Source: Luteolibacter rhizosphaerae
GTDB lineage: Bacteria; Verrucomicrobiota; Verrucomicrobiia; Verrucomicrobiales; Akkermansiaceae
Direction of reading: 5' to 3'
NCBI RefSeq assembly: GCF_025950095.1
Contig: NZ_JAPDDR010000009.1
Location: 186,001 to 250,000 of the forward strand
DNA length: 64,000 bases
Shown one piece after another: positions 13,774-29,767 of the stretch. How positions within the stretch are numbered: the first letter of the stretch is position 1; every line of letters begins with the position of its first letter. The notes below the pieces were generated by a model, which was given only the letters and a program-made list of their open reading frames with translations, was not told the DNA's origin and did no database searches. Both the position numbers and the translations under genes were made by a program.

Positions 13774-15807
13774 ATGAAAAACCAACACCCGAGGTTGCCC
13801 CGCCTCCGCGTTGGCCTGCTTGCCCTTGTTGCCCTGCTCCCCACGCCCTTGCCTGCCGCCGATGTGGCTCAGACAAGTAACCCGATTGGTCGGGTGGCCA
13901 GGCTCTTCAACCGCAAGCTGGTCGAGGTAGAAAACAGGATCCGCTGGCTGGAAAGCCGCGCGGATAACCTGGCTGCATTTGGCGAGAAGCCTCTCAAAGA
14001 GAACGTCGGGTGGCGTTGCGGGCGTATCGAGGAAACGGGTGGCAAGCCGTGGATCGCGCTCGATCTCGGCCGGGAGGTGCCGCTTGGCCAGATTTTCCTG
14101 GTGCCTGCGCAGCAGCAGGCCGGCGATCCGAATGACCTTTTTCCCCGTCGCTTCTCGATCGAGGCGGCCTGCTCCGCGGATTTCTCGGATGCCCGGACGA
14201 TCTACCGGACCGGCCAATTGCCCCAGCCTTCCCCGCAGGGATACCCGGTGCGGGTGAACGGGGATAAGCTCGCCGCCCGGCATGTGCGCCTGACCCTTGA
14301 GGAGGGCTACCGCCGCGGCCTGCAAGACGTGTGCGCCCTCTCGGAGATGTTCGTCTTTTCCGATCACACCCCGGTTTCGCTGGGCGCCAAGGTGAGCGCG
14401 AATCAATCCGTGGAAGTCCCGGGTGTCTGGGACCCGGAATTCCTGGTGGATGGGCGGACGCCTCTCGGCGTGTGGCAGGGCGGTATGACGACTTGGACCA
14501 TCTCTCACGGCGATTGCCTGGAAGTGCCCTTGGAGAATCAGCATGTGGAATGGATCGTCGATCTGGGTGAAACCACTCCGGTCGATCGCATGGTCTTCTT
14601 CCCCTACGCCCTGCCCGAACTTTCGGGGCCCGGCGTGATACCACCTCGCATCCGCGTGGAGATCGCCGACAATCCTGAATTCAAAGGAGCAAAACAGATC
14701 GCCTCCAACGGCGAACGCGACTTGCCGGTGGATCTCACGACGCCCGTCGTCATGCCCACGGATGCCGTGCCCGGGCGTTACCTGCGCGTGATTGCGGACA
14801 AGGCATGGCAACTCGGCAACCGGCGCCTGCAAGCACTGGGCGAAATGGAAGTCTGGACGGGCGATCGCAACCTCGCCGCCGGGCGCGAGATCGTGGCACG
14901 TCACGGCGGGATCGACCAACCCACCGCGGAACTCAGCGACGGCTTGGGCGGAGGCGGCCAGATCCTGCCGCTTCACACCTGGCTCTCCCAACTGGTGGAA
15001 CGCAGCCAGATCCGCGGCGAGTGGGAAGGCCTGCGCGCCTCGCACCTGACCATGGCGTCGGAAAGTGAACTGAACACCACCTGGGGTGCCGCAGTCGCGC
15101 TCGGGCTCACCTTCCTCATCCCCGTCGCCATCGTCGAGCGACGCCGCCTCGTGTCGCGCACCCAGCTCGACAAGCTGCGCAAGCGCATCGCCTCCGACCT
15201 GCATGACGACATCGGCAGCAACCTTGGAAGTATTTCCCTGATCGCCCGCTCGGCGAAACGCGATCTCGAGCGCCTTCACGGGCCGGACGTCGTGGCCAAT
15301 GACCTCGGTGAGGTGGAGACGATCGCCCGCGAAAGTTCGCTGGCCATGCGCGATATCGTCTGGCTGCTGGAGCGTCGCCAGGACACCATCGGCGATCTGG
15401 TCCAGCGCATGCGGGATTGCGCCGCACGCCTCCTGCGCGAAATCGAGTATTCTCTCGTTTGCCGCTCCTCGAAGACGGCGGCAAAGCTGACCCTCGATTC
15501 CAAGCGGCACCTCTTCCTCTTCTACAAGGAGGCCCTGCACAACGTGGTGAAGCACTCCAAGGCCACCACCGTCACCGTGCGGCTCTTCGACGTGCGCGAG
15601 CGCCTCGTGCTCGAAGTCTGCGACAATGGCATCGGCCTGCCTCGCAATGAGGACGACCAGATGGCCGCGGTGAAGAAACTCTCCGACCGTGCCCGCGTGC
15701 TGGAAGGCACGCTCGAAGTGGAATCAGCCCCGGGCCGAGGCACCACCCTCCGACTCTCCGTCAAAAGAACCAGCCTGATGGCTACAAGAGCAAACGCCCA
15801 TGAGTAA
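13774..15807 (+). CDS. NarL-type sensor histidine kinase with two discoidin-like extracytoplasmic domains
   Basis: The 677-residue product has a signal peptide (about 1-29) and a periplasmic region with two F5/8-type-C-like modules (about 75-200 and 205-365), each with strands such as WIALDLGREVPLGQIFLVP and EWIVDLGETTPVDRMVFFP. A single membrane segment follows (about 436-455), then a HisKA_3 dimerisation domain with phospho-acceptor His477 (ASDLHDDIGSNLGSISLIA). The HATPase domain has N-box EALHN (586-590) and DNGIGLP. It overlaps its response regulator gene by 8 bases. The sensory part suggests recognition of a carbohydrate or envelope ligand, by analogy with discoidin folds. An AT-rich stretch at 13713-13747 probably holds the promoter. 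Confidence 0.88.
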   Translation: MKNQHPRLPRLRVGLLALVALLPTPLPAADVAQTSNPIGRVARLFNRKLVEVENRIRWLESRADNLAAFGEKPLKENVGWRCGRIEETGGKPWIALDLGREVPLGQIFLVPAQQQAGDPNDLFPRRFSIEAACSADFSDARTIYRTGQLPQPSPQGYPVRVNGDKLAARHVRLTLEEGYRRGLQDVCALSEMFVFSDHTPVSLGAKVSANQSVEVPGVWDPEFLVDGRTPLGVWQGGMTTWTISHGDCLEVPLENQHVEWIVDLGETTPVDRMVFFPYALPELSGPGVIPPRIRVEIADNPEFKGAKQIASNGERDLPVDLTTPVVMPTDAVPGRYLRVIADKAWQLGNRRLQALGEMEVWTGDRNLAAGREIVARHGGIDQPTAELSDGLGGGGQILPLHTWLSQLVERSQIRGEWEGLRASHLTMASESELNTTWGAAVALGLTFLIPVAIVERRRLVSRTQLDKLRKRIASDLHDDIGSNLGSISLIARSAKRDLERLHGPDVVANDLGEVETIARESSLAMRDIVWLLERRQDTIGDLVQRMRDCAARLLREIEYSLVCRSSKTAAKLTLDSKRHLFLFYKEALHNVVKHSKATTVTVRLFDVRERLVLEVCDNGIGLPRNEDDQMAAVKKLSDRARVLEGTLEVESAPGRGTTLRLSVKRTSLMATRANAHE

Positions 15808-16456
15808 CACCGCCACCACCCCGCTCCGGATCTGGATCTGCGAAGACCACGCCAACTTCGCGAAGCAGATCTCCCGTCTCATCGCCGGTGAGGATGACCT
15901 GATCTGCGAGAAAGCTTTCTCGCATCCGGACGACCTCTTCGCCGAATTGAACTACTGCTCCGCACCGCCGGATCTCCTGATGCTCGACCTCGGCCTGCCC
16001 GGCAAGGACGGCCTGCAGGTCCTGCGCGAAGTGAAGGCCAAGGTCCCGGAACAGAAGATCGTCATCCTCACCTCTTTCGACGATCGCGAGCGCGTCTACC
16101 GCGCCATCTGTAACGGCGCCTCCGGTTACCTGCTCAAGACCGCCGATCCGGATGACATCCTTTCCGGCATCCGCGATGTGATGAAGGGCTCCGCCGCACT
16201 CAGCAGCCCAATCGCGAACATGATTCTCGAAGGCTTTGCCAAGCACGGCCCGGTCGAGGAAACCGAGCCGCTCACTTCCCGCGAGGAGGAGGTGCTGCGC
16301 CTGCTGGTGAAGGGCTTCATCAAGAAGGAGATCGGAGATCAACTCGACATCTCCCAGCACACCGTGGACATGCATCTGCGCAGCGTTTACCGGAAGCTTC
16401 ACGTCCGCACCCAGACGGAAGCCGTCTCAAAGGCCCTCCGCAAAGGATTGGTCTGA
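15800..16456 (+). CDS. LuxR/NarL-family response regulator
   Basis: The 218-residue product has an N-terminal receiver (about 9-125) with acidic pocket CEDH, phospho-acceptor Asp63 (LLMLDLGLPGKDG), the switch Thr in VILTSF and Lys in YLLKTADPD. A LuxR-type helix-turn-helix occupies about 155-215 (PLTSREEEVLRLLVKGF, KEIGDQLDISQHTVDMHLRS). It is translationally coupled to the preceding kinase by an 8-base overlap, so the two are cognate. It ends 74 bases before the HMG-CoA-reductase-like gene on the same strand, which makes that operon the obvious candidate target; this is inference from position only. Confidence 0.95.
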   Translation: MSNTATTPLRIWICEDHANFAKQISRLIAGEDDLICEKAFSHPDDLFAELNYCSAPPDLLMLDLGLPGKDGLQVLREVKAKVPEQKIVILTSFDDRERVYRAICNGASGYLLKTADPDDILSGIRDVMKGSAALSSPIANMILEGFAKHGPVEETEPLTSREEEVLRLLVKGFIKKEIGDQLDISQHTVDMHLRSVYRKLHVRTQTEAVSKALRKGLV

Positions 16457-16530
16457 GCTCCTGCACCATATCTTGTCTTCCCCGCCGGATTCCTTGCGTG
16501 GTGCGCATACCCGTGTAATTCCTGTCTCCA

Positions 16531-17802
16531 ATGACGGGAAAACGCGGGCTGACGCAGCAACACGTGATGCGGATTCTGGGCGGTGAAAGCCCGGATGTGG
16601 TGGCCGCCCGGCTCGCCCCAGATCTCGCGAATCTCCCGGATGTCCCGGCGGGCAGCGCGAAGGTCACACGGGAACGTGCCGAGGCCTTGTGGGAGGAGAC
16701 CGGCCTTGATCAGGAGTCGCGGAAAACGCTGCTGGACGGAGCGGCAGCGGAAGAACTCCCACTCTATCAGGGCAATATCGAGAATGCCATCGGTCTGATG
16801 AAAATGCCGCTGGGCCTGGCGGGGCCCTTGCGGATCAACGGGGTCTCGGCGAAGGGCGACTATCACATCCCCCTCGCCACCACGGAGGCCGCACTGGTGG
16901 CTAGCTATCACCGCGGCTGCCGTTTGCTCACGGCTGCCGGAGGCTGCTCGGCCATGGTGCTCTACGAGAGCCTGAGCCGTGCCCCTGCATTCGTTTTCAA
17001 AACGGCGCCCGACGCCTGCCGGTTCATCATCTGGGCGATGGAGCGGCTGGAAGATTTCCAGAAGGTGGCGGCAACGACCACTTCGCACGGCAAGCTCATC
17101 GACATGGGCGTGACCATGGAGGGCAACCACGTTTACCTGAACTTCGAGTTCACCACGGGAGACGCTTCCGGACAAAACATGGTGACCATCGCCGGCCAAG
17201 CGATTTGCGACTTCATCGTCGAGAACTCGCCGGTCAGCCCCGTCCGCCACTATGTGGAGTCGAATCTCTCGGGCGACAAGAAAGCCAGCACCAAGGCCTA
17301 CACCACGACCCGCGGCAAGAAGGTGACGGCGGAGGCCCTCCTCTCCGCCGAGCTGGTGAAGAAGCACCTGCACACCACCCCGCGGGCGATGGAGCAGTAC
17401 TGGCAGATGTCCGCCATCGGCGGCGTGCTCAGCGGCACCCTTGGCATCCACGGGCACTTCGCCAACGGCCTCACCGCTCTCTATCTCGCCACCGGCCAAG
17501 ACGCGGCCTGCGTGGCCGAATCCGCCACCGGGGTGACCCGCTTCGAGGTCACCGCGGAAGGCGATCTCTACGCCACCGTCACCCTGCCCGGAATCATGGT
17601 CGGCACTGTGGGCGGTGGTACCGGCCTGCCCACCCAGAAGGCCTGCCTGCAACTCATGGGACTACACGGAGCCGGCAAAGCGCGAGCACTGGCCGAGGTC
17701 TGCGCAGGATTGCTGCTCGCCGGTGAGCTCTCGATTATCGGTGCTCTGAGCGCAGGACATTTCGCACGCGCTCACCGCAAGCTGGCCCGGGACCGTAAAT
17801 AA
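16531..17802 (+). CDS. HMG-CoA reductase-like protein, first gene of lipid/prenyl operon
   Basis: The 423-residue product matches 3-hydroxy-3-methylglutaryl-CoA reductase, which makes mevalonate. Catalytic positions are retained: Glu84 (IENAIGLMKMPLGLAGPL), Lys250/251 (SGDKKASTKAY), Asp324 (TGQDAACVAE) and His410 (SAGHFARAHRKLAR). VGGGTGLPTQKACLQLMG is also conserved. The nucleotide-binding motif that is usually DAMG(M/A)N reads DASGQNM (211-217), so cofactor use may differ. No other mevalonate gene is in the window, so it could work on HMG-CoA or on a related acyl-CoA. It heads a seven-gene plus-strand operon; the next ATG is 11 bases downstream. Confidence 0.88.
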   Translation: MTGKRGLTQQHVMRILGGESPDVVAARLAPDLANLPDVPAGSAKVTRERAEALWEETGLDQESRKTLLDGAAAEELPLYQGNIENAIGLMKMPLGLAGPLRINGVSAKGDYHIPLATTEAALVASYHRGCRLLTAAGGCSAMVLYESLSRAPAFVFKTAPDACRFIIWAMERLEDFQKVAATTTSHGKLIDMGVTMEGNHVYLNFEFTTGDASGQNMVTIAGQAICDFIVENSPVSPVRHYVESNLSGDKKASTKAYTTTRGKKVTAEALLSAELVKKHLHTTPRAMEQYWQMSAIGGVLSGTLGIHGHFANGLTALYLATGQDAACVAESATGVTRFEVTAEGDLYATVTLPGIMVGTVGGGTGLPTQKACLQLMGLHGAGKARALAEVCAGLLLAGELSIIGALSAGHFARAHRKLARDRK

Positions 17803-17813
17803 GACGCGAGAGG

Positions 17814-18707
17814 ATGAACCGTTGGTGGATCTATCAGAAGGAGCGCTTCCCGCTGCTCGCACACGGCCCCTTGATTGCGGCCTTTAGCGCCTGCGCCGTT
17901 TCCTTCTCTTCCCTGATCCGGCACGCGCCCCTGCCCGGCTGGGAGATGTATCTCACCGCCTTCGTCGTCTGCCTCCTGATGTTCCTCCAGCTCCGCATCG
18001 CGGACGAGTTCAAGGATTTCGAGGATGACTCCCGCTGGCGACCCTACCGCCCGGTCCCGCGGGGCCTGGTAAAACTTTCGGAACTCCGCATCCTTTTCAT
18101 CATCGCCGCTGCGATCCAGCTCGGCCTGGTGCTGTGGCTCGATCCGCGACTCGTCTGGGTGCTCGGCATCGCGTGGACCTACCTCGCGCTGATGAGCGTG
18201 GAGTTCTTCTGTCGCGAATGGCTGAAGGCTCGCCCCATCGTTTATCTCGTCAGCCACATGGGCATCATGCCCCTGGTGGACTTCTTCGGCACCGCATGCG
18301 AATGGCTCCCGCGCGCGGGAACCGCTCCGCAGGGCCTCGGATGGTTCCTCGCGGCCAGCTTCTTCAATGGCGTGGTGATCGAGCTGGGACGCAAGCTGCG
18401 GCAACCCGCCGATGAAGAGGAGGGTGTGGAGACCTACAGCGCACTCTGGGGCATGCGGCGCGGCGTCACCGTGTGGCTCTTCACGCTGCTTGCCACGCTC
18501 GCCTGCGCACTCATGGCCGCCCGCTCGATCGAGTTCATCACGCCGGTCGCCATCGGACTTGGCGCGGTGCTCCTGATCGCCTTGGCCGCGATCTTCGGCT
18601 ACGCTCACCGCGGGATGTCCGGTAAGAAGATCGAGGCGGTTTCCGCCCTCTGGACCCTCGCTCTCTACCTCCTTCTCGGCCTCGTGCCGATCTGGCTGAA
18701 ACACTGA
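17814..18707 (+). CDS. UbiA-family prenyltransferase
   Basis: The 297-residue polytopic membrane protein (about eight or nine hydrophobic segments) carries both Asp-rich motifs of the UbiA superfamily. The first is RIADEFKDFEDD (61-72) followed by RPYRPVPRGLV; the second is around IELGRKLRQPADEEEGVETY (189-208). Such enzymes transfer a prenyl diphosphate to an aromatic or other lipid acceptor at the membrane, with Mg2+ held by the Asp residues. It starts 11 bases after the HMGR-like gene and ends 3 bases before the PEP-synthase-like gene. It is not obviously UbiA, MenA, COX10 or a chlorophyll synthase, so the acceptor is unknown. Confidence 0.85.
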   Translation: MNRWWIYQKERFPLLAHGPLIAAFSACAVSFSSLIRHAPLPGWEMYLTAFVVCLLMFLQLRIADEFKDFEDDSRWRPYRPVPRGLVKLSELRILFIIAAAIQLGLVLWLDPRLVWVLGIAWTYLALMSVEFFCREWLKARPIVYLVSHMGIMPLVDFFGTACEWLPRAGTAPQGLGWFLAASFFNGVVIELGRKLRQPADEEEGVETYSALWGMRRGVTVWLFTLLATLACALMAARSIEFITPVAIGLGAVLLIALAAIFGYAHRGMSGKKIEAVSALWTLALYLLLGLVPIWLKH

Positions 18708-18710
18708 TTC

Positions 18711-21149
18711 ATGAGCTTTCTCTTCCCCGCTTCCAACATCCCGGGCCTCGGCGGCAAGGGCGCGGCACTCGCCAAACTCGGCGAGGCCGGATTCGAGGTA
18801 CCCGCATGGTTCGCCGTGCCTCCTGCCGCCACATGGAGCGAGGAGGAATTGGCCGCCGCTGTCACACGGCTTGGCGAGGGCCCCTTCGCCGTCCGGTCCT
18901 CGGCCACGATGGAGGATGGCGCGGGGCATTCTTTCGCCGGCCAGTTTGAAACCTTCCTTGTGGTCCCTGCGGATCAGATTGCGGGGAAGATCAACGCGGT
19001 CCGCGACTCGGCCCGGCACGACTCTGTCCTCACCTACTGCCGGGAACGCAACCTGCCGCTCCCTGAACCACCGACCGTGCTCGTCCAGCACATGGTCCTG
19101 CCGCGCGCCGCGGGCGTGGCCTTCTCCGCAGATCCCGTGACCGGCCGACGCAGTGTCGCGCTGGTATCCGCCGTGGAAGGAACCGGCGAGAAGCTGGTAT
19201 CCGGCGATGTCGATGGCGAGAACTGGCGGATCGGAGTGGAAACGCTTGAACCGCCTGCCAACGCGCTCCTCAAGGAAGAGGAAGCCCGCGAAATCGCGGA
19301 GCTCGCCCGCGATTGCGCCGAATACTTCGGCCGTCCGCAGGACATCGAGTGGGCCATCGATTCAGGCGGCAAGCTCTGGCTCCTGCAGTCCCGTCCCATC
19401 ACCACTCTCGCAAACCTCGCCGATCCGGATGAAACCCTGCGGGTCTGGGATAACAGCAACATCGCGGAGAGCTACGGTGGCGTCACCACGCCCCTCACCT
19501 TCTCCTTCGCCCGCCGGATCTATGAGTCCGTGTATCGCGAGTTCTGCCGCCTGATGTCGGTCCCCGCCGACCGCATCGAGCGCGCCGATGATGTCTTCCC
19601 GCAGATGCTGGGGCTCATCCGCGGCCGCACCTACTACAACCTTGCGAGTTGGTATCGCGTGCTCGCCCTGCTGCCCGGCTTCCAGCTCAACCGCTCTTTC
19701 ATGGAGCAGATGATGGGCGTGAAGGAACCGCTGCCCGAACCGCTGGTGCAGAAGATCATCGCGGAATCGACCGTCAGCCGCAGCGCTGACATGCGGGCCT
19801 TGGTCGGCACCTGCATCGGCTTGATCCGCCAGCTTCTCGGGCTTCGCAAGCAAGTGGCAGCCTTCCAAGTGCGACTCGATACCGCGTTGGCTCCGACTCC
19901 CATTCCGCTTTCCGAAATGAGCGGAGAAGACCTCGTCGCCCACTACCGCGAGTTGGAGCGCAAGCTCCTTAAGCGCTGGGACGCACCTCTGGTGAACGAC
20001 TTCTTCGCCATGATCTACTACGGCGTCCTCCGTAGCTTGTGCACGAAGTGGGCCGGAGATACGGATGGCACCCTGCAGAACGACCTGCTCGCCCACACCG
20101 GTGGCATCGTTAGCGCGGAGCCGCCCCGCCGCATCATCCGCATGGCCCGGCTCGCCATGGAGGTTTCCGGTCTTCCGGCCATGCTGGCGGACCCTAAGCT
20201 CACGGCAAAGGAGAAGCTCGCCGCGGTGAAACGCCACGGCTCGCTCGGCGCGGAGTTCGAACTTTATCTCGCTGACTTCGGCGATCGCTGTCTGGAGGAG
20301 CTTAAGCTCGAAAGCCCCACGGTGAAGGACGATGCCTCCACCCTGCTGTCCTCGATCGGTGCCTTGGCCCTCCGTGGCAATCTTCCTGACGAGGAACAGC
20401 AACAGCTTCCGGCTCCAGCCCCCTCTCTCAAAGGATTCTTCCAGCAACTCATCTTCACCCACGTTCTCAAGCAAACGCGCGAACGCGTCCGCTGCCGCGA
20501 GAATCTCCGCTTCGAGCGCACACGGCTTTTCGGGCGGGTACGTTCCGTCCTTCGCGAGCTTGGCAAACGCCTGCATGCGGATGACCGCTTGGAATCGCCG
20601 GAGGATGTCTTCTATCTGGAGCTCGGCGAGGTGCTGTCCGCATGGGAGGCTACCGGCACCACCGCCCGCTTGGCCGATCTGGCAGCTCTCCGCCGCGCGG
20701 AGTTCGATGGCTATCGTCAGGAAGAGGCCCCTCCCGATCGCTTCGAGACCCACGGTCCGGTCCATCGCTACACCGCCTTCGAGTCCACGCGTCAGGAGGA
20801 AACCGGCCCTGCGGATGCGAGCGGGATCAAGGGTATCGGTGCCTGCCCCGGAAAAGTTACCGGTCGCGTGCGCGTGGTGATGGATCCGCGCAATGCCCGT
20901 CTCGAACCCGGGGAGATCCTCGTCGCCCAGCAAACCGACCCCGGCTGGGTAGTCCTCTTCCCCGCAGCCTCCGGTCTCTTGGTCGAACGCGGCAGCTTGC
21001 TCTCTCACTCCGCCATCGTCTCCCGCGAACTCCGCCTGCCCTGCATCGTTTCCCTCAGCCGCATCACCACCATCCTCGAGACCGGCGACCTGGTCGAGAT
21101 GGATGGCAAGACCGGCGAAGTCCGCATTCTGGAAGCCCCCCATGAGTAA
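18711..21149 (+). CDS. PEP-synthase/rifampicin-phosphotransferase-like enzyme
   Basis: The 812-residue product has an N-terminal ATP-grasp domain of the PPDK/PEP-synthase type (PFAVRSSATMEDGAGHSFAG, AGVAFSADPVTG, DIEWAIDSGGKLWLLQSRPI). A long middle part follows, then a C-terminal swivelling phosphohistidine domain with catalytic His766 (GSLLSHSAIVSRELRLPCIV). The PEP/pyruvate-binding TIM barrel of true PEP synthase is absent. The ATP-grasp/middle/phosphohistidine order is that of rifampicin phosphotransferase, where ATP and an alcohol give a phosphorylated alcohol plus AMP and phosphate. A role in phosphorylating a pathway intermediate is therefore plausible but unproven. It starts 3 bases after the UbiA gene and overlaps the next gene by 8 bases. 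Confidence 0.86.
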   Translation: MSFLFPASNIPGLGGKGAALAKLGEAGFEVPAWFAVPPAATWSEEELAAAVTRLGEGPFAVRSSATMEDGAGHSFAGQFETFLVVPADQIAGKINAVRDSARHDSVLTYCRERNLPLPEPPTVLVQHMVLPRAAGVAFSADPVTGRRSVALVSAVEGTGEKLVSGDVDGENWRIGVETLEPPANALLKEEEAREIAELARDCAEYFGRPQDIEWAIDSGGKLWLLQSRPITTLANLADPDETLRVWDNSNIAESYGGVTTPLTFSFARRIYESVYREFCRLMSVPADRIERADDVFPQMLGLIRGRTYYNLASWYRVLALLPGFQLNRSFMEQMMGVKEPLPEPLVQKIIAESTVSRSADMRALVGTCIGLIRQLLGLRKQVAAFQVRLDTALAPTPIPLSEMSGEDLVAHYRELERKLLKRWDAPLVNDFFAMIYYGVLRSLCTKWAGDTDGTLQNDLLAHTGGIVSAEPPRRIIRMARLAMEVSGLPAMLADPKLTAKEKLAAVKRHGSLGAEFELYLADFGDRCLEELKLESPTVKDDASTLLSSIGALALRGNLPDEEQQQLPAPAPSLKGFFQQLIFTHVLKQTRERVRCRENLRFERTRLFGRVRSVLRELGKRLHADDRLESPEDVFYLELGEVLSAWEATGTTARLADLAALRRAEFDGYRQEEAPPDRFETHGPVHRYTAFESTRQEETGPADASGIKGIGACPGKVTGRVRVVMDPRNARLEPGEILVAQQTDPGWVVLFPAASGLLVERGSLLSHSAIVSRELRLPCIVSLSRITTILETGDLVEMDGKTGEVRILEAPHE

Positions 21150-22248
21150 ATCCGAGATCCAGCACCGTGCCGATTTCTCCAAGGTCCGCTACGCCCAATG
21201 CTGGGAGGACTCTCTACTGCTCGTGAAGTCCCTCCAGCCCGCGGGCCGGCATTGCCTCAGCATCGGCTCGGCCGGAGATAACAGCTTTTCCCTCCTCGCC
21301 GCCGGAGCAGCCTCCGTCACCGCGGTGGAGATGAACCCCACCCAAGTCGCTTGCATAGAACTACGCAAAGCGGCGTACCTGACCCTTGATCATCCCGCCT
21401 TCCTCGAGCTCCACGGGTCCCGGCCCTCCACCCGCAGGCCCGCCCTCTACGCCGAGTGTCGCCTCTTGCTCCCAGACGAAGCCCGCACCTTCTGGGATAC
21501 TCGTCCCGAATCCATCGCCACCGGCATCGGCGGCTGCGGTAAGTTCGAGAACTACTTCCGGCTCTTCCGCAGCCGGGTGCTGCCGATCGCACATTCCCGC
21601 AAGCGCGTCCTCTCCCTCTTGGAACCTCGCACAGCCGCCGAGCGACGCCGATTCTACGATGAGGTTTGGAACAACCGCCGCTGGCGCGCCATCTTCCAGG
21701 TCTTCTTTTCCCGCACCATGATGGGTGCCCTCGGTCGCGATCCCGAGTTCTTCAAGTATGTGGAAGGCTCCGTGGCCGACCGCATCCTCTCCCGCACCGA
21801 GCACGCCCTCGCCGTTCTCGATCCCTCGGCCAATCCCTACCTCCACTGGATTCTCACAGGCACGCATGGCGAGCATCTCCCGCATGCGCTCGAAGAGGAG
21901 AACTTCGAGATGATCCGGGTCGGTCTCCAGCAGGAGCGCTTCCGCGTCCACGGCTCGTCCATCGAGGCCTTGTTAGAATCAGAACCGGAGAAGCGCTACG
22001 ATGCCTTCAATCTGAGCGACATCTTCGAGTACATGAGCGAGGCGAACACGGAAGCGCTGCTCCGCCGCCTCGTCGCCGCCTCTAATCCCCGCGCCCGTCT
22101 GGCTTACTGGAACATGCTGGCCCCGCGCTCCCGCCCGGAAAGCATGGCTCAAGTCCTGCAACCGCGCGCCAGTGAATCCACCGCGCTCTTCCATGAAGAC
22201 CGCGCCTTCTTCTACAGCCGCTTCGTCGTGGAGGAGGTGCGGGGATGA
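21142..22248 (+). CDS. DUF3419 protein, BtaA-like SAM-dependent 3-amino-3-carboxypropyl transferase
   Basis: The 368-residue product starts at an ATG that overlaps the end of the previous gene (CATGAGTAA). It has the DUF3419 signature: YAQCWEDSLLL near the N-terminus, an SAM-binding loop CLSIGSAGDNSFSLLA (38-53), acidic strand AVEMNPTQVAC, then RFYDEVWNNRRWRAIFQVFF, FNLSDIFEYMS and LAYWNMLAPRS. The family includes BtaA, which moves the 3-amino-3-carboxypropyl group of SAM onto diacylglycerol in betaine-lipid synthesis. No BtaB-type N-methyltransferase is present nearby, so the product need not be a betaine lipid. It overlaps the next gene as ATGA. Confidence 0.85.
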   Translation: MSKSEIQHRADFSKVRYAQCWEDSLLLVKSLQPAGRHCLSIGSAGDNSFSLLAAGAASVTAVEMNPTQVACIELRKAAYLTLDHPAFLELHGSRPSTRRPALYAECRLLLPDEARTFWDTRPESIATGIGGCGKFENYFRLFRSRVLPIAHSRKRVLSLLEPRTAAERRRFYDEVWNNRRWRAIFQVFFSRTMMGALGRDPEFFKYVEGSVADRILSRTEHALAVLDPSANPYLHWILTGTHGEHLPHALEEENFEMIRVGLQQERFRVHGSSIEALLESEPEKRYDAFNLSDIFEYMSEANTEALLRRLVAASNPRARLAYWNMLAPRSRPESMAQVLQPRASESTALFHEDRAFFYSRFVVEEVRG

Positions 22249-23564
22249 CATCCGCCGAGTGGCTGGCAGTGGCCGCGGTGCTCGGAGCCCTCCTGCTCGG
22301 GCTTCCGCTATTCCGTTGGCTCTGCCGGCGCTGCGGTGCCTCCGCCGAGGTCTCCCGCAAATCGGTCCACGTCGCCATGGGTCTCGCCTGCGCGGCCTTC
22401 CCATGGATTTTCGATCGACCGCTACCGGTCTGGATTCTCGCCGCTCTTGCGACACTCCCTTTGGCCCTGCTGCGCTGGGTTCCCGCACTTCGCTCAGGCA
22501 TCGGCTCCACCCTTCACGGCGTGAAGCGCATCTCTTACGGCGAGATCCTTTTCGCGCCCGCCGTTGCCGCTGTCTTCGATCTCTCGAATGGCGATGCGCT
22601 GCTGCATGCCATCCCCGTCGGCATCCTCACCGTGGCGGACGCAGCAGGTGCCATCGCAGGCACCCGCTGGGGCCATCGGATGTATGTCTGCGGCACATCC
22701 CGCAAAAGCGTGGAAGGCTCCGCAGCCTTCCTCGCCGTTGCCTTCCTGTGCACCTTTCTTCCGCTCTGGCTCAGTGGTCGCACCGAGCCCTTCCAGACCG
22801 TCCTCATCGCACTCACCCTCGCCATTGTCTCGATGATGGCGGAGGGCATCTCGGACCGGGGCTTCGACAACCTCGTCATCCCCATCGGTTGCCATCTCCT
22901 GCTTGCCCGCTTTCTCGCCAGCAGCGATGCCGAAATGATCGTCCGCTTCGCCGCCGCCTCCTTGCTCCTCGGCCTGGTGAGCGCCGGGGCGCGCTGGAGC
23001 ACCTTGAGCGGTAGCGCGCTCATCGGTGCCGCCCTGCTCGGCTACGGCTGTGCGATCCTCGCCGATCCCCGCTTCGCCCTGCCGCTGGTCGCCATCTTCA
23101 TCTGCCATCTCGTCACCACTCGACGCCATCGTCTGGGCCAGACCTTCGACCATCGTCTGGATACAGTGATCTCCCACGCCCTCGGCAGCCTCCCTTGGTG
23201 TTTGGCCGTCGACCGCGGCTCGCTGGAACCCTCCATCGCGCTGGCCGGACTTTCCTTCGCCATGGCGATCCAGCTTACCATCGCCGATGTCGCCACACGC
23301 CATCACCTCGATCCCGGCCACCCGCGCTTCGCACGAGCCATCCTGAAAGGCTGGATCATCGGCGGATTGCCCGGACTCCTCTGGCTTTGGCATGGCTTCG
23401 ACCGCATCGCATTGCCAGCCCTCGCCGCGCTTCTCCTCACTCCGTTTGTCGCATGGTGCTGCCATCGCATCGAGTGCCGCCGCCTTGTTTCGGAAACCTC
23501 GCTGTGGATGGCCCGCGGGATACTTTCCCTCATCTGTTCCAGCACCGTCCTTTTCACGCGATGA
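22245..23564 (+). CDS. Fusion of dolichol/phytol-kinase-like domain with DUF92-like (phytyl-phosphate-kinase-like) domain
   Basis: The 439-residue polytopic membrane protein has an N-terminal half (about 1-225) of the CTP-dependent dolichol/phytol/diacylglycerol kinase family: SRKSVHVAMGLACA, KRISYGEILFAPA, TVADAAGAIAGTRWG, RKSVEGSAAFLA and EGISDRGFDNLVIP. The C-terminal half (about 226-439) resembles DUF92/TMEM19 proteins (STLSGSALIGAALLGYG, ALPLVAIFICHLVTTR, DTVISHALGSLPWCL). In plants VTE5 (phytol kinase) and VTE6 (DUF92, phytyl-phosphate kinase) catalyse successive steps, so this could be a bifunctional prenyl-alcohol to prenyl-diphosphate kinase. The kinase half is well supported and the DUF92 half is a weaker call. 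ATGA overlaps link it to both neighbours. Confidence 0.78.
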   Translation: MTSAEWLAVAAVLGALLLGLPLFRWLCRRCGASAEVSRKSVHVAMGLACAAFPWIFDRPLPVWILAALATLPLALLRWVPALRSGIGSTLHGVKRISYGEILFAPAVAAVFDLSNGDALLHAIPVGILTVADAAGAIAGTRWGHRMYVCGTSRKSVEGSAAFLAVAFLCTFLPLWLSGRTEPFQTVLIALTLAIVSMMAEGISDRGFDNLVIPIGCHLLLARFLASSDAEMIVRFAAASLLLGLVSAGARWSTLSGSALIGAALLGYGCAILADPRFALPLVAIFICHLVTTRRHRLGQTFDHRLDTVISHALGSLPWCLAVDRGSLEPSIALAGLSFAMAIQLTIADVATRHHLDPGHPRFARAILKGWIIGGLPGLLWLWHGFDRIALPALAALLLTPFVAWCCHRIECRRLVSETSLWMARGILSLICSSTVLFTR

Positions 23565-24547
23565 ATGCCACCATCCTCCATCATGACGGCCCCGGCCTAC
23601 CGGAAATCACACTCGCCGAAGGCCTGGAATCTCCTGCCGCCCTCGCTCCCGAAAGCGAGCATCCGGACGATAGGATTTCCCTCATCGAAGATGGCCGCAC
23701 CATCGCCTGCGCCAGCCTGTGGTGGACCGAAGCACCGCCGCTCGAAGGCGAGCGCGTCGGCTGCATCGGTGGCTTCGCGGCACGCGATGGCAAAGCCACT
23801 GCTATTCTGTTAGAAGCCGCGGAGCAGCGTCTGCGCGAGGCCGGCTGCACCCTCGCCATCGGTCCGATGAACGGAAACACCTGGCGACGCCACCGCTACG
23901 TGATCGAAAGCAGCGCCCGCGGCCCTTTCCTCTTGGAGCCGCGCAATCCCGTAAACTATCCCGGCTGGTGGCGCGCCTCCGGCTATCGCGAACTCTCGCG
24001 CTACTCATCCTCCGCCATGCCGCTCGATGGTTCTTCGGTCGTCGCTCCCGCCCTTAAAGCGAGATTGGAGCGCTCCGGCCTCATCATCCGCCCCCTCCAC
24101 GCGGATCGTTACGACGACGAACTCCGCGCCATCCACGCCATCAGCCTCCGCAGCTTCGCGAACAACTTCCTCTACACTCCGCTCGAAGAGGAGGGTTTCC
24201 TCGACGCCTATCGCAAGGTGAAGGACCGCGTGGATCCGGATCTGGTCCGCATCGCCGAGAAGGATAGCAAGCCTTGCGGCTTCGTCTTCGCCATCGCCGA
24301 TCTCGAAGCCGCAGCCCGCGGCGAGAAACCCGCGCTCATCGTCAAGACCCTCGCCGTCGACCCCGAATCGCGCTGCGCCGGTCTTGGCAGTCTTCTCGTC
24401 GACGAAGTCCACCGCCTCGGCCGCGAGAAAGGCTTCACCGAGGCAATCCACGCGCTGCAGCACGAGACGAATACGTCGCTCAAAATCACCGGCCGCCATC
24501 AAGGCACACCCATCCGCCGCTACGCCCTGTTCTCGAAATCGCTATGA
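23561..24547 (+). CDS. GNAT-family N-acyltransferase
   Basis: The 328-residue product starts at ATG 23561, overlapping the preceding stop (ATGA). It appears to contain two GNAT-like halves. The first has ACASLWWTEAPP, IGGFAARDGKATAILLEAAE and the characteristic GPMNGNTWRRHRYV. The second has the acetyl-CoA-binding loop within LAVDPESRCAGLGSLLVDEV. The double fold is seen in several peptide or lipid acyltransferases; the substrate is unknown. In this operon it would be suited to N-acylating the amino group added by the DUF3419 enzyme, but that is inference. A CTGTTAGA motif lies inside it at 23807. It overlaps the ligase gene by 4 bases. Confidence 0.8.
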   Translation: MNATILHHDGPGLPEITLAEGLESPAALAPESEHPDDRISLIEDGRTIACASLWWTEAPPLEGERVGCIGGFAARDGKATAILLEAAEQRLREAGCTLAIGPMNGNTWRRHRYVIESSARGPFLLEPRNPVNYPGWWRASGYRELSRYSSSAMPLDGSSVVAPALKARLERSGLIIRPLHADRYDDELRAIHAISLRSFANNFLYTPLEEEGFLDAYRKVKDRVDPDLVRIAEKDSKPCGFVFAIADLEAAARGEKPALIVKTLAVDPESRCAGLGSLLVDEVHRLGREKGFTEAIHALQHETNTSLKITGRHQGTPIRRYALFSKSL

Positions 24548-26094
24548 ACCTGGTGGCACTTCTCCGCGAGCGCGCCGCTCTTCATCCGGACCGACCCGCC
24601 CTCATCGACCGACACAAGGGCCGCGACCGCAGCGTCAGCTTCGCCGAACTCCAGCAGCGGGTCCAAAGCGGAAACACCCGCCTGAAGAAACTCGGCCTCA
24701 CCCGCGGCAGCACCATCCTTGTCTTCCAGCCGGTCTCGATCGAACTCTACGAGATTCTCCTCGCCGCCTTCCACGGCGGCCTGCGGGTCATGCTCGCCGA
24801 TCCCTCCGCCGGTCGTACATTCCTCTCCCTCTGCTGCGAACGCCTGCCACCGGATGCCTTCTTCGGCCCGTGGAAAGCCCACCTTCTCCGTCTCGCCGTA
24901 ACCGGCCTCCGCCGCATCCCGCGCGCGATCCGCTCCAGCGGCTACTTCCCCGGCACGTCCATCTGGCAAACGGACGATAGCCCCTCGCCTCTCGCCGATC
25001 TCCCCGATGAAGAGCCCGCGTTGATCACCTTCACCAGCGGCAGTACCGGCGTGCCCAAGGCCGCTGTTAGAACGCACGGCTTCCTACTCGCCCAGCATCA
25101 TGCACTTGAGAAGGCCCTCGACTTCGAGGACGGCGAGGTCGACCTCATCACGCTTCCCGTCTTCGTCCTCGCGAACCTTGCCTCGGGCCTCACCAGCGTG
25201 CTCGCGGATACCGATTTGCGCTCGCCCGGAAAGGCCGACGCTGCGGCAATCCGAGCCCAATGCAAACGCCACGGCGTGAACCGCTGTGCCGCCTCACCCG
25301 CCTTCTTCGAGGCCCTCCTCGCAGGACCGGGCCCTCTGCCAGAGCTGGCGAAGGCCTACACCGGCGGAGCCCCGGTTTTCCCCGATCTGTTAGACCGTCT
25401 TCAAGCCTCTCTTCCACAGTCGGAAGTCACCGCCGTCTTCGGCTCCACCGAGGCCGAACCGATGAGCCATCTCGGCGCGCGCGAGTATGACGAAGCCCTC
25501 GTCGCCCTCACGGGCTCGGGTCACGGTCTCTGCGCCGGCACCCCGGTTCCGGAAGTGGAACTCCGGGTGATCCGCGACCACTGGGGCCAAGCTCTCACGA
25601 AACTCTCTCCCGAGGAGTTCGACCTCCTCGCCCAACCGGCGGGCCAACCCGGTGAAGTGGTCGTCACCGGCGATCACGTCCTCTCCGGCTATCTCGGCGG
25701 TATCGGCGACAGTGAAACGAAGATCCATGTCGCGGGAAAAGTCTGGCACCGCACCGGCGATGCCGCATGGCTGGATACCGAGGGCCGCCTCTGGCTCCTT
25801 GGTCGCTGCGCCGCCAAGCTCCCCGCCGCCCCCCTCTCCCGACCCGATCTCCCTGAAGGAGCACTCGACTACCCCTTCGCGATCGAATCGGCCCTCCGCG
25901 TCCGCCACCCCGGCACCCGCACCGCCGCGCTCGGCTGGAGAGGCGAGCGCATCCTCGCCACAGCTGCCGCGGGTCTGGAGCAGGACGCCGCCGAGTTCGG
26001 CATCACCCGGGTCTTCCGCGTCGCAGCCCTGCCGCTCGACCGTCGCCACAATGCCAAGATCGACTACCCGGCCCTGCTGAAGATGCTGGAGTAG
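24544..26094 (+). CDS. AMP-dependent acyl/aryl-CoA synthetase-like ligase
   Basis: The 516-residue product is an ANL-superfamily adenylating enzyme. The phosphate-binding loop is at 161-173 (LITFTSGSTGVPKAA), the A5-type motif is FGSTEAEPMS, the A7 Asp is in HRTGDAAWLDTEGRLWLLGR, and the catalytic A10 lysine is Lys505 (RRHNAKIDYP). The overall shape and the GRLWLLGRCAAKL segment resemble OleC-like and other lipid-pathway ligases. It would activate a carboxylate as adenylate or CoA ester, or a beta-lactone precursor in the OleC case. It is the last of the overlapping genes (ATGA with the GNAT gene). aroB follows after 61 bases. Two CTGTTAGA motifs are present (25064 and 25387). Confidence 0.85.
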   Translation: MNLVALLRERAALHPDRPALIDRHKGRDRSVSFAELQQRVQSGNTRLKKLGLTRGSTILVFQPVSIELYEILLAAFHGGLRVMLADPSAGRTFLSLCCERLPPDAFFGPWKAHLLRLAVTGLRRIPRAIRSSGYFPGTSIWQTDDSPSPLADLPDEEPALITFTSGSTGVPKAAVRTHGFLLAQHHALEKALDFEDGEVDLITLPVFVLANLASGLTSVLADTDLRSPGKADAAAIRAQCKRHGVNRCAASPAFFEALLAGPGPLPELAKAYTGGAPVFPDLLDRLQASLPQSEVTAVFGSTEAEPMSHLGAREYDEALVALTGSGHGLCAGTPVPEVELRVIRDHWGQALTKLSPEEFDLLAQPAGQPGEVVVTGDHVLSGYLGGIGDSETKIHVAGKVWHRTGDAAWLDTEGRLWLLGRCAAKLPAAPLSRPDLPEGALDYPFAIESALRVRHPGTRTAALGWRGERILATAAAGLEQDAAEFGITRVFRVAALPLDRRHNAKIDYPALLKMLE

Positions 26095-26155
26095 CAGACA
26101 CTCAAGCCACGCTTCAGGGTTGGACCTTGCCGCGCCGTTGTCCATGCTCCGCGCC

Positions 26156-27241
26156 ATGCCGACGGTGCACGTTGATTTGGGTGAGCGCTCCTATGAGGTT
26201 CTGGTGGAAACCGGTCTCTTGGCGCGCGCCGGTGAAACCATCGCCCGAGCGGGCCTGAAGGGACGTGCCGCCATCGTTTCCGACGAGACCGTCGCCAAGT
26301 ACCACGCGGAGGCCCTGCAAGCCTCGCTCCAAGCCGTCGGCTTCAACCCCACCCTTCATCTCGTCCCCGCAGGCGAAGCCTCCAAGTCGATGTCGCGGGC
26401 GGAAGAGGTCTGCTCCTCACTCGCAGCCGCCGGTCACGATCGTCGCTCCTTCGTCGTCGCTCTCGGTGGCGGCGTGGTCGGCGATCTCGCGGGCTTCGTC
26501 GCCTCGGTCTTCTATCGCGGCATCCCCTTCGTTCAGGTTCCGACCACCATCGTCGCCCAAGTCGACTCGTCGGTGGGTGGCAAGACCGGCGTGAATCTCG
26601 CGGAGGGAAAAAATCTGTTAGGCGCATTTCACCAGCCCAAGCTCGTGATCGTGGACCCATCGGTCCTCGCCACACTCCCCGCCCGCGAGTACCACGAGGG
26701 CTTTGCCGAGGTCATCAAGCACGCCGCCATCCGCGATGCCGCCATGCTCGCGGAGATCGCGAAGCTCGACCCCGCCACACGCGACGTGCCCGCCGATCTC
26801 ATCGCTCGCAACATCGCCATCAAGGCCCGCATCGTCGAAGCCGACGAACACGAGACCAAAGGCATCCGAGCCCTCCTGAACTTCGGCCACACCATCGGCC
26901 ACGGTATCGAGGCCGCCGTACCCTATGGCGAGATGCTCCATGGCGAGGCCATCGGCCTCGGCCTCCGCGCGGCCCTCCTCCTTTCGGAGAAGCACTCCGG
27001 CCTTTCTCCCTCCGCCAGCAAGTCGATCCTCGACCTGCTCGCGCACTTCCACCTCCCCCTCGTGCTTGATCCCGCCATCACCACCGGGCGGGTTCTTCAC
27101 AAGCTTGGCCGCGATAAGAAGTTCGAGGCCGGCAAGGTCCGCTTCGTCCTCCTCCGCGATGCCGGCGATGCCTTCGTCAGCGATGCCGTCACCACGTCCG
27201 ATATGGAGGCAGCCATCGAGCACCTGCGCATGCCTCGCTGA
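26156..27241 (+). CDS. aroB: 3-dehydroquinate synthase
   Basis: AroB converts DAHP to 3-dehydroquinate in the shikimate pathway using NAD+ and a divalent metal. The 361-residue product from ATG 26156 has PAGEASKSM, the nucleotide-binding VVALGGGVVGDLAGFVASVF, QVPTTIVAQVDSSVGGKTGVN, the metal ligands in EVIKHA and the HTIGHGIE/MLHGEA histidines, all at normal spacing. Upstream in-frame ATGs at 26120 and 26144 give longer N-termini without family similarity. It is the last plus-strand gene before a convergent minus-strand operon and may be read from the lipid operon or from its own promoter in the 61-base gap. Confidence 0.96.
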   Translation: MPTVHVDLGERSYEVLVETGLLARAGETIARAGLKGRAAIVSDETVAKYHAEALQASLQAVGFNPTLHLVPAGEASKSMSRAEEVCSSLAAAGHDRRSFVVALGGGVVGDLAGFVASVFYRGIPFVQVPTTIVAQVDSSVGGKTGVNLAEGKNLLGAFHQPKLVIVDPSVLATLPAREYHEGFAEVIKHAAIRDAAMLAEIAKLDPATRDVPADLIARNIAIKARIVEADEHETKGIRALLNFGHTIGHGIEAAVPYGEMLHGEAIGLGLRAALLLSEKHSGLSPSASKSILDLLAHFHLPLVLDPAITTGRVLHKLGRDKKFEAGKVRFVLLRDAGDAFVSDAVTTSDMEAAIEHLRMPR

Positions 27242-27243
27242 CC

Positions 27244-27287
27244 CGCTCCAAAAGAAAAGGGCCGCTCGCAGCAAGCGAGCAGCCCTT
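27244..27287 (-). terminator. Intrinsic terminator between aroB and the pseudopilin operon
   Basis: A 13-bp stem (AAGGGC-GCTCGC type arms at 27257-27269 and 27275-27287, loop AGCAA) is followed on the minus strand by TTCTTTT. Read on the minus strand the single C-A mismatch becomes a U-G pair, so the full stem forms. It lies about 25 bases after the stop of the minus-strand pseudopilin gene. It may also stop aroB transcription from the other side, although no U-run follows in that direction. Confidence 0.8.
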
Positions 27288-27312
27288 GAGATGCTATGAC
27301 ACGGAAACCGGA

Positions 27313-28254
27313 TCACATCCCCGGCAGCTCCACCGTGCGGGAATATTGGAAGGACTCCGCCGCAAGAATCTTCTCACGGGCTGCGTCCGGCAGTTGCTGG
27401 TTGTTGAGACGGATCACGGCCGAATCGGAGAGAACGGTCACACCGATCTCCACTCCGGTCAGTCGGCCAGCCTTGAGCTCGTCTTCCGTGACGCTGGGCT
27501 TCAGCGCGCTGCCGGAGGCATCGGTCACGATGCCATTGCCGCGCAGGCGCATCTCCTTGCCGGCACCGTTCTCGCCGAGGGTCACGCGGACCGGAACGGT
27601 CGTGGTGGTCCCACCCGTTTGCTGCTGGGTCACTTCCACTTGGAAGGTCAGCGTGAACTGATAGATATTCTCGCAGACGAAGTTCTCGGGCTCCTTGATC
27701 TTGTCGTCCTTGCTCGAGAAGGCGTCATCCAGATCGGCTTGGCCGAGCAGATCGTCGAAGGTCTCTTTCGGATCGACCAGATAACGGTAGAAGACGAAGG
27801 TCGAGGAGTCGCCCTCGGCTTCTTCCTCACCCGTCACCGGATCTTGATACTCGAGCTTGTAGGCCACACAGGATACATCGCCGCCCAGATCGGAAGCAGT
27901 GCCGATCTGGCCGAGATAGCGGTCGGTGGCAGCCGTGAAGAAGATCAGGTCAGCCGCATTCGAACTCTGGTTGGCAGAGGGACCCGGCAGGTTATCCGCC
28001 ACCTTCGCGTAGAGCCACTCGAAGTTGTTACCGCGGCGCGAAACGAGGGACTCGAAGTCCTTCGCCATGGTGTCGAGCATCGACTTCGCCTGACGGGACG
28101 CACGGATCTCGGAGCGGCCACGCTGCCACGAATCCAGTGCAATGCCGGTGATGGATACCAGCACGGTGACGATGACCGTCGTGATGGCCATCGCGACCAT
28201 CAGCTCGATCAGCGTGAAGCCACCGCTGTGTTTGGAAGTTTTCGGGGTTTTCAT
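27313..28254 (-). CDS. Type II pseudopilin, GspJ-like
   Basis: The 313-residue product has a prepilin leader ending in Gly before GFTLIELMVAMAITTVIVTVL, the class III methylation motif with Glu5 and a hydrophobic N-terminal helix. Its large globular part suits a minor pseudopilin of the GspJ type that caps a pseudopilus. It includes a flexible acidic loop (TGEEEAEGDSS) and a segment with QQQTGGTTTTVPV. It is the last of three pseudopilin genes on the minus strand, 22 bases after the GspI/V-like gene. No prepilin peptidase, ATPase or secretin gene is nearby. A terminator follows. Confidence 0.85.
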   Translation of the reverse strand: MKTPKTSKHSGGFTLIELMVAMAITTVIVTVLVSITGIALDSWQRGRSEIRASRQAKSMLDTMAKDFESLVSRRGNNFEWLYAKVADNLPGPSANQSSNAADLIFFTAATDRYLGQIGTASDLGGDVSCVAYKLEYQDPVTGEEEAEGDSSTFVFYRYLVDPKETFDDLLGQADLDDAFSSKDDKIKEPENFVCENIYQFTLTFQVEVTQQQTGGTTTTVPVRVTLGENGAGKEMRLRGNGIVTDASGSALKPSVTEDELKAGRLTGVEIGVTVLSDSAVIRLNNQQLPDAAREKILAAESFQYSRTVELPGM

Positions 28255-28276
28255 TGAGGGCAGGTTCTAGCCGCAA

Positions 28277-28999
28277 TCAGCGGCGGACGGCGAGATTTCG
28301 TGTGAAGACGGGCTTCGTAAGGTTCTCCGGGTTGAACTTGCCACCGGGCCTCACGTAGTTGGGGTCACTGTTCGGCACGATGAAGAATTCGGCCGCGAAC
28401 GCAATCACAGCCTCCACGTAGGCGTCGGAGCCCGTGCCGCCCAGGCTTTCATCGGTCCCGTTCGGATCATTGTTGATGCCTTCGTCTTCACGCTTCACGA
28501 GCTGGCCGTTGGCAAACTCGAGTTGGGTCAGCTTCGTCGTGAAGATCCGGCCATCGAGAGCCTCCAAGTCTTCCAAGAAAAGCGGATCGTCGCGCTTGCG
28601 CACCGAAGGCTGGACAATGAAATCCTTGCCGGCGACTCCACCGCCCTGGGTAAACGGCTCCATCGAACCGTCTTCGCGGATCTCGTTCGGCGTGCCGCGA
28701 TACTGGTAGAGGAAAATGGATGCGTCGGCGTCCGAGGAGGCTTCTTCAATCCATTGGTAGGCCTTGTCGAAGCCGGTCTTATACTCCGTGGTCGTGCCGG
28801 GGCGCAGGGTCACCAGCTCGCGCTCCAAGGCGGCGGCAAGACGGTCGGCCTCCTGCACGCTGATGGCCTTGCGCAGACCGGTGGTGGCAGGACCGAAGAC
28901 GGCAAGGAACGCCGTGAGGAGCAGGGCCAGCACGCCAATGGCGATGACCGTCTCCATCAGGGTGAAGCCGCGTCGCATGCGGTTGAAAGTGGACTTCAT
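28277..28999 (-). CDS. Type II pseudopilin, GspI/PilV-like
   Basis: The 240-residue product carries a basic leader (MKSTFNRMRR) followed by the prepilin motif GFTLMETVIAIGVLALLLTA. This is the variant FTLMETV typical of GspI/PilV minor pilins, with the conserved Glu5. The globular part is soluble and of unknown fold (YQYRGTPNEIREDG, VQPSVRKRDDPLFLEDL). It starts at ATG 28999, 8 bases after the stop of the GspH-like gene, and precedes the GspJ-like gene. The three probably form one minus-strand transcript making the tip complex of a pseudopilus. No assembly machinery is in the window. Confidence 0.85.
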   Translation of the reverse strand: MKSTFNRMRRGFTLMETVIAIGVLALLLTAFLAVFGPATTGLRKAISVQEADRLAAALERELVTLRPGTTTEYKTGFDKAYQWIEEASSDADASIFLYQYRGTPNEIREDGSMEPFTQGGGVAGKDFIVQPSVRKRDDPLFLEDLEALDGRIFTTKLTQLEFANGQLVKREDEGINNDPNGTDESLGGTGSDAYVEAVIAFAAEFFIVPNSDPNYVRPGGKFNPENLTKPVFTRNLAVRR

Positions 29000-29007
29000 G
29001 TGCGGGA

Positions 29008-29676: not shown

Positions 29677-29697
29677 GACGGGGTTTTGGTTTATGAA

Positions 29698-29726
29698 TTT
29701 ATGGTCCTGCCTGTGCCGCGATGCAA
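29698..29726 (-). promoter_or_regulatory. Sigma-70-like promoter of the pseudopilin operon
   Basis: On the minus strand TTGCAT (29726-29721) and CATAAA (29703-29698) are separated by exactly 17 bases, in an AT-rich patch 22 bases upstream of the GspH-like ATG. This is the best promoter match seen in the window but is unconfirmed. Confidence 0.5.
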
Positions 29727-29767
29727 GCGAGAATGTGTTTACATCGCAATTACCGGCAATTTCCTGA

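Follow-up and report, generated by a model that had tools for sequence, protein, structure and literature searches.

Gene content and layout of the locus

The analysed window is a stretch of 64,000 nucleotides from Luteolibacter rhizosphaerae (contig NZ_JAPDDR010000009.1, positions 186,001 to 250,000), and the positions given below are those of the window. Its positions 16531-26094 on the plus strand include seven head-to-tail open reading frames (ORFs), each beginning with ATG (Table 1). They encode a protein resembling 3-hydroxy-3-methylglutaryl coenzyme A (HMG-CoA) reductase (HMGR), a UbiA-superfamily protein, a protein resembling phosphoenolpyruvate (PEP) synthase (PEPS), a DUF3419 protein, a phytol/dolichol-kinase-like protein (hereafter the kinase), a GNAT protein and an acyl ligase. 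These seven genes form a real, patchily distributed conserved unit, and we consider it very likely that they constitute one conserved pathway.

The first spacers of the set are 11 and 3 bases long, and thereafter the genes overlap by 8, 4, 4 and 4 bases. When the sequence was read again, the seven ORFs, their strand and their spacings agreed in every point with a preliminary description of the stretch. Six of the seven proteins exceeded the family cut-off in the Pfam scan. The exception was the kinase, with 20.3 bits for CTP_transf_1 against a cut-off of 24, and no Pfam match to DUF92 was found in it. A sigma-70-like promoter was not found across positions 15700-27400.

Table 1. The seven genes of the cluster, with their positions in the window and the evidence for each assignment.
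Predicted product	Position	Strand	Evidence
HMGR-like reductase, apparent cluster-type class I HMG-CoA reductase paralogue	16531..17802	+	PF00368 378.6 bits
UbiA-superfamily membrane prenyltransferase	17814..18707	+	PF01040 49.4 bits, cut-off 34.2
PEP-synthase-like (PEPS), putative rifampin-phosphotransferase-type ATP phosphotransferase	18711..21149	+	PPDK_N 150 and PEP-utilizers 79 bits
DUF3419 protein, class distinct from BtaA	21142..22248	+	PF11899 220.1 bits
Phytol/dolichol-kinase-like membrane protein	22245..23564	+	Invariant residues, CTP_transf_1 below cut-off
Tandem-GNAT N-acyltransferase	23561..24547	+	PF00583 38.2 bits, predicted structure
AMP-forming acyl ligase, PRK09274 / OleC-like group	24544..26094	+	PF00501 147.7 bits

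Conservation and gene order

The phylum sample included 387 genomes and was searched with the kinase of the window. A match was found in 25 of them, five of these being weak (E 3.8e-6 to 7.0e-4), and within the genus of the window two of the six genomes, its own included, had the kinase. Outside the own genome, the stronger matches gave 19 phylum loci, and in 17 of these the DUF3419 gene adjoined the kinase gene, between one and five further families of the set being present as well; the exceptions were L042, with the kinase alone, and L046, at a contig edge. Beyond the phylum, genome contigs were scanned with the DUF3419 alignment, and the best 80 of at least 550 relatives were taken. All locus counts given here refer to the resulting set of 99 loci, 98 of them distinct because L079 duplicates L036. 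The counts of the DUF3419 and kinase genes are biased upward, since the loci were retrieved through these two.

The complete set of seven families was present in 52 of the 99 loci, or 51 of 98 once the duplicate was removed. Some of the incomplete loci were on contigs ending inside the cluster (e.g. L052, L104 and L108), and others were truly without a gene in the sequence examined. A chance arrangement is excluded, because the same families recur adjacent to each other in relatives with about 28-82% identity, all seven of them in those 51 loci. The preliminary description had claimed a single pathway, and this claim held: the homologues were syntenic and not scattered.

Three gene orders were detected among the 51 complete loci. 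The most common, HMGR-UbiA-PEPS-DUF3419-kinase-GNAT-ligase, was found in 38 loci, nine had the GNAT and ligase genes at the front, and the remaining four had the order HMGR-DUF3419-kinase-GNAT-ligase-UbiA-PEPS. All six main adjacencies had a median gap of -4, with start codons chosen by a script. The pairs UbiA-PEPS, DUF3419-kinase and GNAT-ligase were unbroken in all three orders, which fits pairs of linked steps. The commonest recurring family outside the seven was present in ten loci and was, according to the one member scanned, an ABC-transporter ATPase; many of the unlabelled recurring families were ORFs lying over the seven genes.

Some single loci showed peculiarities. L115, L117 and L123 are DUF3419-GNAT-ligase variants in which no kinase was found and a SnoaL/DUF4440-like protein is present, and the gene for the latter occurs also in L104 and L034. 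L117 includes a second PEP-synthase-like gene. In L066 and L102 the PEP-synthase-like gene was matched in two pieces, representing a frameshift, a split gene or an assembly error.

Taxonomic distribution

Of the 79 full-length PEPS proteins placed in a tree, 65 were named rows, which by record title belonged to 16 phylum-level groups. The phylum labels were clustered in the tree (21 changes against 38.7 when shuffled, the minimum possible being 15), with some phyla interleaved; the labels are submitters' titles and many of the records metagenome bins, and the interleaving does not prove transfer. Records with all seven families that were not marked as bins included Rubritalea profundi, Haloferula luteola, Natronospirillum operosum, Desulfobulbus rhabdoformis, Alkalilimnicola ehrlichii and Methylomonas sp. 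SURF-1. One scan of viral contigs with the kinase found no relative.

The HMGR-like enzyme

Of the 387 phylum genomes, 71 had PF00368 and 63 had HMG-CoA synthase (HMGS). The HMGR scores were bimodal, with 14 cluster-type places at 335-383 bits and all others at 306 bits or less. Every genome with HMGS had also HMGR, and eight genomes had HMGR without HMGS, seven of these of the cluster type and one canonical (G130). HMGS was missing from seven of the 14 genomes with cluster-type HMGR, as against one of the 63 with canonical HMGR; the other seven cluster-type genomes have HMGS, and six of them carry a second, canonical HMGR. In the genome of the window itself (98.05% complete) HMGS (PF01154) was not found and DXR of the methylerythritol phosphate pathway is present, and a mevalonate pathway was on these grounds rejected for it.

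The alignment included 63 cluster-type and 17 other HMGR sequences, the latter comprising 16 from the phylum and 6hr7. The catalytic E119, K250, D324 and H415, which we take to correspond to E559, K691, D767 and H866 of human HMGR, were conserved in both groups, and likewise R150 and K251. Position 243, presumably equivalent to human S684, the cis-loop Ser that contacts the HMG carboxylate, was Glu in 63 of 63 cluster-type sequences, whereas the 17 others all had Ser. The groups differed also at positions 247 (Ser in the cluster type, Cys in the others), 308 (Gly and Ala, respectively) and 411 (Phe and Leu). With its basic partners kept, Glu243 should occupy the place of the carboxylate, which would mean that the substrate is probably without that group. 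Judging from the alignment, cluster-type HMGR is a separate paralogue with an apparently changed HMG pocket. It shares the family and the catalytic residues with the HMG-CoA reductase of the mevalonate pathway, but differs from it in the pocket, in forming a separate score class, and in that HMGS is missing from half of the genomes that carry it.

The DUF3419 protein

BtaA, a member of the DUF3419 family, and BtaB are the enzyme pair of betaine-lipid synthesis. PF11899 was found in 39 of the 387 phylum genomes, and the scores divided into a BtaA-like class of 332-387 bits (15 places) and a class of 170-220 bits (20 places), which includes the cluster proteins; a third, divergent group gave split weak matches. 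One copy of this group, a further and very divergent DUF3419-like gene, is in the own genome at C4:446294-447304, where the match is split into parts of 42 and 37 bits.

A BtaB-like motif, derived from the 332-387-bit class itself, was present in 13 of the 15 loci of that class but neither in the window nor in any of the 98 cluster loci, and three motif-bearing neighbours of the BtaA-like class were methyltransferases according to Pfam. Although it belongs to the same family as BtaA, the cluster DUF3419 protein is not part of the betaine-lipid pair, because it forms a separate score class and has no BtaB-like neighbour. By analogy, the group that it transfers may be the same as that of BtaA, the aminocarboxypropyl group of S-adenosylmethionine (SAM). 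The search of PDB sequences with the DUF3419 profile gave no match at E ≤ 0.1.

The kinase, UbiA and a natural fusion

In the kinase, E35, R38, K39, H42, D132, K154, E157, G158, G206, D208, N209 and P213 were invariant in 55 of 55 members. All the invariant residues are within the first 213 residues and none in the C-terminal half; the N-terminal half (approximately residues 1-225) is conserved, and the C-terminal half is variable and in L109 and L124 short. The kinase model had a predicted local distance difference test score (pLDDT) of 95.2. Comparison of its N-terminal half with the cytidine diphosphate-diacylglycerol synthase 4q2g gave Z 8.5 over 149 residues at 3.8 Å, and that of the model with 5guf Z 6.5, both of them values that helical proteins can reach by chance. 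The kinase profile had no match among PDB sequences at E ≤ 1, and Foldseek found none with the model at E ≤ 0.001.

The C-terminal half had been labelled DUF92 in the preliminary description. A weak DUF92 match was detected there in two of ten members scanned singly (236-288 in L105 and 243-283 in L114), and anywhere in the kinase in five of 55 members. Alignment of the half with five true DUF92 proteins (hhalign) gave a probability of 22% and E 0.001 over the first 66 columns only, and the residues invariant in these five proteins had no counterpart among the conserved C-terminal kinase positions (n = 55). A working DUF92 half was rejected, as there is at most a remote stretch and the motif residues are missing, and with no match in the window protein either, the label was not confirmed.

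The UbiA assignment was upheld by the Asp-rich metal-binding motifs (D64, D68, D72 and E201, each conserved in at least 95% of 73 sequences) and by the Pfam score above the cut-off. An in-frame natural fusion was detected at L088:11092-12783, with a UbiA domain in place of the C-terminal half of the kinase. Its residues 1-267 were 46% identical to the kinase of L110, and residues from about 255 to 554 were 60% identical to the separate, neighbouring UbiA of L110; the Pfam score of the UbiA part, 28.0 bits, is below the cut-off. When 398 Pseudomonadota genomes were searched with the L088 kinase-UbiA query, three matched, a figure to be read as a lower bound because the query is divergent, and both domains were found in the seed genome G391 only. 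The fusion points to a direct link of the kinase and UbiA steps. This part of the earlier kinase scheme is strengthened by it, while the formation of a diphosphate by the kinase alone is unsupported, because the C-terminal half is without the DUF92 motif residues and is exchanged for UbiA in L088.

PEPS, GNAT and the ligase

PEPS has an ATP domain and a swivel domain (PPDK_N and PEP-utilizers); no further match to Pfam reached E ≤ 0.01, and a PEP/pyruvate barrel domain is lacking. Its nearest solved structures were 5fbs, 5hv2 and 5hv1, listed there as PEP synthase, which we take to be rifampin phosphotransferase. The swivel residue H766 was conserved in at least 95% of 79 sequences. By its domains and nearest structures, PEPS is a putative dikinase of the rifampin-phosphotransferase type. 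The GNAT model (pLDDT 94.6) matched the tandem GNATs 7q3a (the best match) and 2wpw, as well as 5kf1 (the next best) and 1ozp, and is itself a tandem GNAT; the N-myristoyltransferase profile was touched by three of 41 members, with a best E of 2.8e-5. The nearest family of the ligase was NF006754 (314.7 bits, under the cut-off of 478), and its motif residues were conserved (n = 65).

Proposed pathway

We infer a product and an order of steps as follows. The AMP ligase would activate a carboxylic acid, and the HMGR-like enzyme would form an alcohol by reducing an acyl-CoA that is not HMG-CoA. The kinase-like protein would act on a prenyl or allylic alcohol and phosphorylate it, cytidine triphosphate being the probable donor, and PEPS would add a further phosphate, possibly giving a diphosphate, whereafter UbiA would transfer the chain to an acceptor. 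The DUF3419 enzyme would then add the 3-amino-3-carboxypropyl group from SAM, and the tandem GNAT would acylate the resulting amino group. This would give an N-acyl aminocarboxypropyl lipid whose chain is isoprenoid or fatty, and which in some strains is perhaps hydroxylated and sulfated as well.

We see about even chances that the seven genes encode a dedicated membrane-lipid pathway to an N-acylated aminocarboxypropyl lipid through kinase and UbiA chemistry, with the order left open, and the full scheme in the order given above is a tentative and more doubtful proposal. The outline agrees with that of the preliminary description, from which roles for the HMGR-like and the PEP-synthase-like enzymes were missing; the DUF3419 enzyme and the N-acyltransferase that it included are both supported, by the family match and the tandem GNAT fold, respectively.

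Several observations weigh against this pathway. The presumed substrates are all drawn from family chemistry. The own genome has two polyprenyl synthases, so UbiA could take ordinary prenyl diphosphates and bypass the kinase and PEPS steps. The only example of the fusion comes from a metagenome bin, and the 398 Pseudomonadota genomes yielded no second case. Six loci (L094, L101, L103, L115, L117 and L123) showed no kinase, the ligase was seen in none of the five cyanobacterial loci, and the cyanobacterial L093 and L126 have a cluster-class DUF3419 gene with the other six families not seen in the sequence examined. Some clusters have no HMGR, nor does the examined sequence of their genomes as a whole (G006, G084, G117 and G230, as well as G004 and G275, which are fragmented), and in nine loci without HMGR, inspected by eye, there was no consistent replacement gene. 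G350 has HMGS and yet the cluster-type enzyme as its sole HMGR; that enzyme could take part in the mevalonate route there, unless a second HMGR falls in the missing part of this 89% complete genome.

The case of G350 would suit a pathway of modified isoprenoid supply, in which HMGR-like reduction and two phosphorylations give an isoprenoid diphosphate used by other genes. A reductase and two phosphotransferase families in one operon do resemble the logic of the mevalonate pathway, but the presence of DXR and the failure to find HMGS in the own genome, the Glu that takes the place of Ser in the HMG pocket of all 63 cluster-type sequences, and the clusters without HMGR make such a supply improbable. 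Of similarly low probability is the scheme of the preliminary description, where the kinase fusion alone, with a phytol-kinase and a DUF92 half, makes the prenyl diphosphate for UbiA. In plants, phytyl diphosphate arises through two separate kinases, VTE5 and then VTE6 (PMC9782597), and the weak DUF92 matches of some members and the E value of the hhalign alignment are in line with this scheme. Against it stand the low probability and early end of the same alignment, and the C-terminal half itself, which has neither counterparts of the DUF92 motif residues nor any invariant residue, is short in two loci and is replaced by UbiA in the fusion.

The fusion fits also a phospholipid route, in which UbiA itself uses a prenyl or alkyl monophosphate supplied by the kinase, as decaprenyl-phosphate phosphoribosyltransferase does, and PEPS phosphorylates the head group. 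At least one UbiA-superfamily enzyme takes a prenyl phosphate (PMC5133447), but the seven families include no sugar- or phosphoribosyl-donor enzyme, and we regard this route as unlikely. An operon of convenience, with unrelated functions united by co-expression or block transfer, would explain the patchy distribution, seen even within the genus. It is, however, very improbable, given that no outside family is present in more than ten loci, that the three rearranged orders retain the same seven families, and that two of these occur fused.

Neighbouring genes

A P450 gene together with a Sulfotransfer_3-type gene lies beside four clusters (L034:13997-16446, L054:14931-17410, L078:2427-4996 and L082:2441-4857), and P450 alone beside those of L076 and L119. 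This module, in which the Pfam scan covered the L054 pair only, is present in Verrucomicrobiota and Gammaproteobacteria records, and its occurrence suggests an optional decorating module. Directly 3' of the kinase gene in L092 there is a gene for an MMPL-family transporter (L092:12503-14779), a possible exporter of the product.

In the window, aroB (26156-27241) was rejected as a pathway member, as it passes the AroB cut-off and none of the 19 phylum loci showed a match to it. Upstream, at 13774-16456, there are a LuxR-type response regulator and a sensor kinase that includes an F5/8-type-C-like region, possibly a local regulator; the pair was rejected as part of the core, because among the 19 phylum loci only the congeneric L033 has it. 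Prepilin-like proteins were read from the ORF list on the minus strand at 27313-29916. Anti-phage defence was rejected for the four cluster proteins scanned.

Relation to described systems and significance

No description of the seven-gene set was found in open-licence literature, preprints not being covered, so absence from print is not shown; within this scope the earlier claim of an undescribed combination stood. Among the papers found, the nearest described system by kind is the ebo operon (eboA-F), a conserved, uncharacterised operon that occurs in various bacterial groups, includes a novel subgroup of the UbiA superfamily and has a proposed isoprenoid hybrid product (PMC5133447). Both are conserved multi-gene operons with a UbiA-superfamily member. 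Of the six annotations in the ebo abstract (a novel family, a metallo-hydrolase, a UbiA-like protein, a sugar phosphate cyclase, a xylose-isomerase-like protein and a phosphate hydrolase), however, only the UbiA superfamily is in common with the seven genes, and the terms 'HMG-CoA' and 'phosphoenolpyruvate' are absent from the main text (PMC5133447). The phytol salvage by VTE5 and VTE6 that feeds UbiA enzymes likewise combines a prenol kinase with UbiA-type prenyl transfer in one scheme, but the cluster is without DUF92/VTE6 motifs, and a putative rifampin-phosphotransferase-type enzyme adjoins UbiA instead (PMC9782597).

The seven-gene set is probably a biosynthetic operon with a lipid-like product of an undescribed kind, and a fixed seven-enzyme operon across many phyla points to a product with a real, recurring use. 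It is possible, at somewhat less than an even chance, that the operon represents an overlooked class of membrane lipids, distributed patchily over about 16 phylum-level groups, namely isoprenoid lipids of the N-acylated homoserine (aminocarboxypropyl) type, assembled by a fixed line of seven enzymes that includes an HMGR-family enzyme with a substrate other than HMG-CoA. The cluster class of DUF3419 proteins may be confused in annotation with betaine-lipid synthesis. Identifying the lipid would assign functions to seven uncharacterised subfamilies together, among them a reductase that belongs to the family of the statin target and seems to have moved away from the mevalonate pathway.

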